NCBI GenBank assembly: GCA_017412405.1 | Contig: JAFPYB010000122.1 | Location: 1 to 39,998 of the forward strand | Direction of reading: 5' to 3' | DNA: 39,998 nt | Origin: Treponema sp. | GTDB taxonomy: Bacteria; Spirochaetota; Spirochaetia; Treponematales; Treponemataceae | Shown: one piece after another, positions 1,201 through 3,426 of the stretch | Numbering within the stretch: position 1 is the first letter of the stretch | How the letters are laid out: each line of letters starts with the position of its first letter | Made by a program: the position numbers and the translations under genes | The notes under the pieces: generated by a model | What the model was told of the DNA's origin: nothing | The model's input: the letters and a program-made list of their open reading frames with translations, nothing else | The model's database searches: none

Positions 1201-2172
1201 TTATGCTCTCTTCAGGTGGATTGCGAATCCGCCCACCTCTTTGTCGAGGTAGACGACCTTGAGCGGAGAGGCGTTCTCTTTGCCCATCCACTTCTCCGTT
1301 CCTGCGACAGGCTTGAAGCCGAACTTGTCGAGGTACGCCAAAGCGCGCTCGATGTTGTTGCAGACCACGGAGATGTGTCCGTGTGTTCCGCGTCCGTTCT
1401 GCTTCATGATTTCAATCTGGTCTGAGGCGAAGATTGAAGAGTTTCCGACTTTTGCGGCGAATCCGAATGGATCGAAGCCTTCAGCGATTTTTGTGGCATC
1501 GTCCGGGTTCTTAGCGTTGATTCCCCAGTGGTCGATGTGGAAGTTGTGCATGGCCTTCACAGCGTCCTTGCAAATCTGTGTGATTTCGTCCCACTTGCAG
1601 CCCTCGATGAGAGGCTTCTTGACCATCCATGTTCCGCCCATGCAGAGGATGTTCTTGCGCTTCGCGTACTCGCCCACGTTCTCCGTCGTGACGCCGCCTG
1701 TCGGCATGAACGTGCACTGCGGGAACGGGCCGCCGAAGTCGTCGATGATTTTGTATCCGCCCTTGCGCTCTGCAGGGAACAACTTGAGGTGTGTGACGCC
1801 CTTGTTGATGCAGGCTGTGATTTCAGACGGGTTGGAGATTCCTGGCATTGTAGGAATATTGTTCTTCAAGCACCAGTCAACGACATCAGGATTGTATCCC
1901 GGTGAAACGATGAATTTAGCTCCGGCCTTGACAGCCTTTTCTGCCTGCTCAACGTTGAGGACTGTACCTGCACCAACGAGCATGTCTGGCTCGGCCTTAA
2001 TCATAGCCTCGATAGCCTCAGCTGCACAAGCGGTGCGGAAAGTTACCTCAGAAGCCGGGAGTCCGCCCTTGACGAGAGCGTGGGCCAGGTCGGCTGCCTT
2101 TGAAGCATCTTCGATTGCGACAACAGGAATGATACCGATGTCACGGAATGTGTCATAAATGTCTTTTGCCAT
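1201..2172 (-). CDS. eda: KDPG/KHG aldolase fused to a C-terminal glyoxalase-like (VOC) domain
   Basis: 323 residues. The first ~200 are a class I KDPG/4-hydroxy-2-oxoglutarate aldolase: EVTFRT (Glu42, Arg46), the GAGTVL strand, SPGYNP, Schiff-base Lys130 in HLKLFPAE, and the phosphate-binding PTGGV. It would split 2-keto-3-deoxy-6-phosphogluconate into pyruvate and glyceraldehyde-3-phosphate (Entner-Doudoroff or uronate breakdown) in the cytoplasm. Ordinary Eda is about 205-215 residues; the extra ~120 (from about residue 205) look like a vicinal-oxygen-chelate fold, with GHISVVCNNIERALAYLDKFGF typical of glyoxalase/bleomycin-resistance domains. AGGAGA lies 8 bases before the ATG. It sits 87 bases after the exchanger gene on the same strand and has its own terminator. 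No other Entner-Doudoroff gene is nearby, so the substrate is not fixed by context. Confidence 0.88.
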   Translation of the reverse strand: MAKDIYDTFRDIGIIPVVAIEDASKAADLAHALVKGGLPASEVTFRTACAAEAIEAMIKAEPDMLVGAGTVLNVEQAEKAVKAGAKFIVSPGYNPDVVDWCLKNNIPTMPGISNPSEITACINKGVTHLKLFPAERKGGYKIIDDFGGPFPQCTFMPTGGVTTENVGEYAKRKNILCMGGTWMVKKPLIEGCKWDEITQICKDAVKAMHNFHIDHWGINAKNPDDATKIAEGFDPFGFAAKVGNSSIFASDQIEIMKQNGRGTHGHISVVCNNIERALAYLDKFGFKPVAGTEKWMGKENASPLKVVYLDKEVGGFAIHLKRA

Positions 2173-3240: not shown

Positions 3241-3253
3241 GCGCACCTCCTAT

Positions 3254-3311
3254 AAAAAAAAGACCTTTTGCCGAATGTGCGCTTTTGAGCATACACGCGG
3301 CAAAAGGTCTT
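3254..3311 (-). terminator. intrinsic terminator/attenuator in the exchanger leader
   Basis: A perfect 14-bp inverted repeat (AAGACCTTTTGCCG at 3260-3273 and its complement at 3298-3311) is followed on the minus strand by seven T's, only about 4 bases before the AGGAGG of the exchanger. There is no room for a promoter between terminator and start, so every exchanger transcript must pass it. The CAAAAGG just before the riboswitch core can pair with CCTTTTG in the first arm, a candidate antiterminator (inference). Confidence 0.85.
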
Positions 3312-3314
3312 GTT

Positions 3315-3392
3315 ATCCGAAAAACGAACGCCCGAAACCAGTCTTTCGACGGGTATGTTGATTTCAGGCCGTAACTACTCCCCTTTTGTTCT
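3315..3392 (-). ncRNA. probable yybP-ykoY (Mn2+) riboswitch
   Basis: On the minus strand the leader has AAAAGGGGAGTAG (core GGGGAGTAG at 3383-3375), the hallmark 5' motif of yybP-ykoY manganese riboswitches. About 12 bases later comes ATCAACATACCCG (3362-3350) and a GTC-GAAA-GAC hairpin inside a CCCG/CGGG stem. It lies between a promoter (3398-3426) and an intrinsic terminator (3254-3311) ahead of a cation exchanger gene. Known members bind Mn2+ and raise expression of metal exporters. I cannot run a covariance model, and the second half fits less strictly than the first, so the class is probable rather than certain. Confidence 0.68.
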
Positions 3393-3397
3393 AGAAA

Positions 3398-3426
3398 AGT
3401 AAAACAGATTTCGATTTTTTGTGCAA
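3398..3426 (-). promoter_or_regulatory. promoter of riboswitch-exchanger transcript
   Basis: Minus-strand TTGCAC (3426-3421), a 17-base spacer and TTTACT (3403-3398) place the start of transcription near 3391, just before the riboswitch core. It follows directly on the terminator of the upstream gene. The hexamers are only moderate matches. Confidence 0.45.

Follow-up and report, generated by a model that had tools for sequence, protein, structure and literature searches.

The stretch of DNA analysed here, from a gut Treponema (39,998 nt, the window), carries on its minus strand a leader RNA of the yybP-ykoY class ahead of a gene for a CaCA-family exchanger. Taken as a whole, the unit is very likely to be a Mn2+ riboswitch with a three-way junction, a transcriptional ON switch for an exchanger expelling Mn2+. 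The order of elements in the sequence, from 5' to 3', is promoter, aptamer, intrinsic terminator, Shine-Dalgarno sequence and the exchanger ATG (Table 1), and every element of the original prediction, which placed a promoter, an aptamer-like RNA and a terminator before the exchanger ribosome site, was found in its place. That prediction spotted the L1 loop and missed L3, the stronger clue of the two because it equals the RF00080 consensus. Transcription is expected to start at about 3391-3389. The leader promoter is absent from the list produced by a consensus promoter scan, as its -10 element has no A at position 2; the layout TTGNNN-N17-TTTA(C/A)T is common to the leaders of two close orthologues, and similar promoters lie ahead of most sibling leaders.

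Table 1. Elements of the leader and exchanger gene in the window, and loci of the MamN/CitMHS-like side finding
Feature	Position or loci	Strand	Details and support
Sigma-70-like promoter	3398..3426	-	-35 TTGCAC 3426-3421, 17-nt spacer, -10 TTTACT 3403-3398
Predicted yybP-ykoY aptamer, three-way-junction form	about 3301..3390	-	R1 model, RF00080, fold, covariation
P1.1 5' strand CAAAAGG	3382..3388	-	Pairs with 3307-3301 in the aptamer fold; helix 1 covaries
L1 GGGGAGTAG (RNA GGGGAGUAG)	3375..3383	-	GGAGUAG in 77/77 aligned leaders
L3 TCAACATAC (RNA UCAACAUAC), metal-site loop	3353..3361	-	Identical in 60/77 leaders
P1.1 3' strand CCUUUUG (switch strand)	3301..3307	-	Common to the aptamer and the terminator 5' arm
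Intrinsic terminator	3254..3310	-	Stem 3310-3261, 5' arm 3310-3298, 8-U run 3261-3254
Shine-Dalgarno GGAGG	3246..3250	-	3 nt past the terminator U-run
CaCA exchanger, 326 aa	2260..3240	-	ATG 3240; PF01699, TIGR00367
MamN/CitMHS-like transporter (side-finding loci)	L034, L035, L036, L038, L043, L046, L053, L101, L162-L168, L173, L174, L179, L183, L185, L186		

Assignment of the leader to the yybP-ykoY class

For the Rfam model of the class, RF00080, no match was found in the window or in the genome at the gathering score, which is a detection threshold and no biological feature. The RF00080 match expected in the original prediction is present in a permissive scan, but at 15.9 bits (E 0.016) it stays below the cut-off of 45 bits. 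Since the mntP leaders of the genus also fail the cut-off (18.7-26.3 bits), the low score was judged not decisive and the model insensitive here; signal was seen in five control genomes, above the cut-off in two. The Rfam model overlooks P2-less members of the class across a whole genus. A separate covariance model, R1, was built from six leaders of the genus, five from MamN-like genes and one from mntP, with no exchanger leader included. It matched the window leader with 66.7 bits (E 1.6e-18 in the search of the loci and 2e-17 in that of the whole genome) and also the leaders of UPF0016, MntP, TerC, P-type ATPase and CaCA genes in other phyla. R1 matches to the loci L189-L191 (E 0.02-0.06) are weak, look like chance and were excluded.

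The R1 alignment, covariation and fold place P1.1, P1.2, P3.1 and P3.2 correctly with respect to L1 and L3; L1 is a G-rich loop (GGGGAGUAG), and L3 (UCAACAUAC) presents UCAAC(AUAC) with the conserved discriminator adenosine. Over 77 aligned leaders from several phyla, 94.1% of cells are paired in the structure and two-sided changes occur in 25 of 29 pairs, counts that lean towards the structure because the alignment follows the model and the collection of loci relied on the L1-L3 pattern or on the model. Pairing among the same 77 leaders is at most 48% after sliding of the strands, and the compensatory changes sit in helices outside the L1-L3 search pattern. P3 came out wrong when RNAalifold was applied to a MAFFT alignment, owing to one gap misplaced in the exchanger leaders, and a hand-written structure on six consistently aligned leaders was used instead. 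The yybP-ykoY identity claimed from the sequence at the outset is borne out by the R1 model, covariation and the leaders of orthologues, and as a sequence-based assignment it is strongly supported.

The window aptamer consists of P1.1, P1.2, P3.1/P3.2 and P4, with P4 directly after P3; P2 is absent from the leader, which leaves a three-way rather than a four-way junction. The four-way junction with P2 is usual in yybP-ykoY RNAs, not universal, and was not taken as defining. There are precedents for the P2-less form: the yybP-ykoY aptamer of S. pneumoniae mgtA is reported to have a three-way junction (PMC9495176), and scanning GTDB genomes with a P2-less pattern returned 108 stretches, mostly ahead of UPF0016 genes. 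The mgtA riboswitch, as reported, also resembles the window unit in having a divalent-cation exporter as its target, but there the exporter is a P-type Mn2+/Ca2+ ATPase. With the L. lactis yoaB riboswitch the window shares L1, L3, P1.1, P1.2, P3, P4 and the competition of P1.1 with an intrinsic terminator, and differs from it in the three-way junction and in falling below the Rfam cut-off. Treponema mntP leaders tend towards P2 with little P4, while the leaders of MamN-like and exchanger genes have P4 and no P2, and one MamN-linked leader (L046) has both. Three MntP-linked leaders of the genus (L031, L033, L042) have L1 and L3 identical to those of the window but differ from it in the presence of P2, in little or no P4 and, by eye, mostly in having no terminator before the gene.

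Proposed switching mechanism and ligand

When 3390-3299 is folded alone, P1.1, P3 and P4 form; in the fold of the full leader, the terminator takes the 3' strand of P1.1 and P1.1 is opened. That strand lies within the 5' arm of the terminator, as in an expression platform where P1.1 excludes the terminator, and by a simple rule a terminator overlapping P1.1 was found in 63 of the 77 related leaders. Because the strand is part of the terminator arm, ligand binding should permit read-through, and the attenuation logic proposed earlier gains support from this overlap and from the folding. Docking of L1 and L3 upon Mn2+ binding is known to stabilise P1.1 and to keep the terminator from invading it (PMC6754395, PMC11087558); given this published mechanism and the mutually exclusive folds observed here, the window unit should be OFF by default and turned ON by Mn2+. 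With too little Mn2+, the terminator would capture CCUUUUG and the transcript would stop before the Shine-Dalgarno sequence. At high Mn2+, L1 and L3 would dock around the ion, P1.1 would be stabilised and the terminator excluded, and the exchanger would be made and would expel Mn2+, probably against Na+.

It is unlikely that the aptamer senses Ca2+, or Ca2+ together with Mn2+, and switches on a Ca2+-exporting exchanger when Ca2+ is high. Such a reading would suit a protein family that is nominally Ca2+/Na+ and has canonical NCX site residues, and some yybP variants may sense divalent ions other than Mn2+ (PMC7266159); however, the window leader shares its exact L1 and L3 sequences with leaders ahead of MntP in the same genus, and a Bordetella CaCA homologue under a yybP-ykoY RNA exports Mn (PMC8546581). 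The S. pneumoniae mgtA aptamer, which also has a three-way junction and drives a Mn2+/Ca2+ ATPase, reportedly binds Ca2+ more tightly than Mn2+ (PMC9495176, PMC11434433), but transcription under this RNA is reported to be activated more by Mn2+ than by Ca2+ (PMC9495176).

The exchanger and proposed Mn2+ export in Treponema

The exchanger protein matches Pfam Na_Ca_ex (PF01699) in two stretches with E 2e-70 and the NCBIfam calcium/sodium antiporter model TIGR00367 with 236.9 bits (cut-off 179.65), and among proteins of solved structure it lies closest to the M. jannaschii Na+/Ca2+ exchanger. The sequence has two alpha-repeats, with PE and GN..GSN motifs and with E57, N76, E232 and N251 at the ion-site positions. 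These residues also occur in ordinary Na+/Ca2+ exchangers, give no pointer to Mn2+ and, being typical of the family, were uninformative as a test of Mn2+ versus Ca2+ specificity. Elsewhere in the window (1201-2172, minus strand) there is a gene for a KDPG/KHG aldolase that is extended at its C-terminus by about 120 aa; this extension has no Pfam match and, by eye, looks like a glyoxalase/VOC-type domain.

The original prediction regarded an exchanger as an unusual riboswitch target. Such targets are indeed uncommon but have already been described: the calcium:cation antiporter BP3410 of Bordetella pertussis is controlled by a yybP-ykoY riboswitch that responds to Mn, and cell Mn is lowered about fivefold by functional copies of the antiporter (PMC8546581); BP3410 is listed as YrbG type (PMC9936198), and V. 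vulnificus yrbG has been predicted to be under a yybP-ykoY RNA (PMC13274385). The window target is therefore less surprising than was first held. In both the BP3410 and the window units the same RNA family precedes a YrbG-type CaCA exchanger, and the BP3410 transcript ends within its leader without Mn, a termination design that can be likened to the one predicted here. The two units come from distant bacteria, the BP3410 aptamer is a clear Rfam match (E 8.5e-15; PMC8546581), and the Mn response and Mn export measured for BP3410 are what we infer for the window unit, which is best seen as a new, well-supported member of the riboswitch-CaCA pairing proven in Bordetella. No spirochaete example of the pairing was found in the literature searched, the scope of which did not extend to full lists of riboswitch targets. 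An exchanger otherwise annotated as Ca2+/Na+ would gain a Mn2+ function, and the view of CaCA proteins as a recurrent though uncommon class of bacterial Mn2+ efflux proteins is supported.

The yybP-ykoY RNA precedes mntP in the genus Treponema. Directly after such leaders, in at least 13 genomes of the genus and in Treponema parvum, lies the gene for a MamN/CitMHS-like protein (PF03600, ion-transporter superfamily; loci in Table 1), which also stands directly 3' of mntP on the same strand in six genomes (L197-L202); in L198 and L199 the mntP operon begins with a yybP-ykoY leader, as judged by motif. As 13 R1 matches sit ahead of MamN-like genes and mntP is adjacent in these six genomes, the protein can be tied to Mn2+, and it is a candidate for an unrecognised Mn2+ transporter. 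Of the 196 genus genomes, 134 encode MntP, 161 encode the MamN-like transporter and 18 have neither. Both are absent in all four genomes with a window-type exchanger against 14 of 192 others (Fisher p 5e-5), and CaCA exchangers of any kind are much less frequent in genomes with the MamN-like protein (12/34 against 149/162 in the 196 genomes, p 5e-12), in tests that ignore shared ancestry and draw on incomplete assemblies, the source assembly being 79% complete. Their joint absence in the exchanger genomes fits replacement. It is conceivable, if rather tentative, that most Treponema species use MntP and/or the MamN/CitMHS-like protein, the latter of which would form a novel Mn2+ transporter class, and that the window lineage swapped both for a YrbG-type CaCA exchanger under the same three-way-junction riboswitch.

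The source genome encodes a UPF0016 protein, a possible Mn exporter; the idea that its gene is under a riboswitch was rejected, as no motif or model match was found upstream. The presence of this protein would suit an alternative in which the RNA is a real Mn2+ riboswitch whose exchanger restores the Ca2+/Na+ balance or supplies periplasmic Mn2+ rather than detoxifying Mn2+. Precedents for such roles are E. coli Alx, a riboswitch target of the same class that raises intracellular Mn (PMC9936198), and the TerC proteins that metalate exported enzymes (PMC12096827, PMC10550928). There is little chance that this applies here, however: with MntP and the MamN-like protein absent and the UPF0016 gene leaderless, the exchanger is the sole gene found under the riboswitch in the assembled part of the genome. 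The genus distribution, together with the Bordetella counterpart, rather suggests that the exchanger may serve as a Mn2+ efflux route.

Orthologues of the exchanger were examined for the same leader. It is present, with promoter, aptamer and terminator all kept, at orthologues 86% and 88% identical from two ruminant Treponema genomes, but absent at a 77% identical one (L003) and at those of 54-59% identity; since the L003 orthologue has no leader, the coupling of riboswitch and exchanger is not obligatory. A divergent leader (R1 19.3 bits) precedes a divergent exchanger at L030 (34% identical to that of L041 by BLAST), and in view of this and the patchy occurrence among orthologues, the pairing was probably gained or lost several times. 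At L024, a terminator-like leader containing GGGAGTAG lies ahead of a CaCA exchanger of about 40% identity; R1 gives it no score, and it may be a degenerate member of the class. The L1...L3 pattern (GGGGAGTAG...TCAACATAC) occurs once in the 40-kb window against none in 100 shuffles and is found in 22 of the 196 genus genomes, the reversed pattern in none. The full leader folds better than 200 of 200 shuffles (z -4.8), and the terminator alone reaches -31.1 kcal/mol (z -8.0). A chance combination of an L1-like motif and a hairpin before an ordinary gene, in line with an RF00080 score under the gathering score and the leaderless 77% orthologue, is refuted by the independent model (E about 1e-18) and covariation, and the absence of shuffle matches and the conservation at two orthologues likewise count against it.

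Further targets of P2-less leaders

Besides the MamN/CitMHS-like candidate, the P2-less leaders lead to an unexplained target, stand-alone OadB, found behind yybP-ykoY-type leaders at L175-L178, L180-L182, L184, L187 and L188 and at L063, L074, L113 and L125 (PF03977 confirmed for L063, the others assigned by sequence likeness). The Treponema OadB leaders have a shortened L3 (UCAACA followed by A or G, without UAC) and those of Lachnospiraceae a full one; among the 77 leaders, shorter L3 forms are mostly OadB-linked. OadB is an odd target, and the ligand of its leaders could differ. Upstream of one OadB leader, on the opposite strand, a sub-threshold match to the TD-1 RNA was noted (L175:1200-1319; RF03155, 50.3 vs 64.5 bits).

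A distant CaCA subfamily also follows P2-less yybP-ykoY leaders (L114, L122, L107, L099, L080, L069, L156, L073). Its hosts are Bacillota, Geobacteraceae, Magnetococcales and other groups, and several of its members are without GN..GSN. At L161:5552-7345, a leader of the yybP-ykoY class lies ahead of a gene for a Na+/phosphate cotransporter with PhoU domains.
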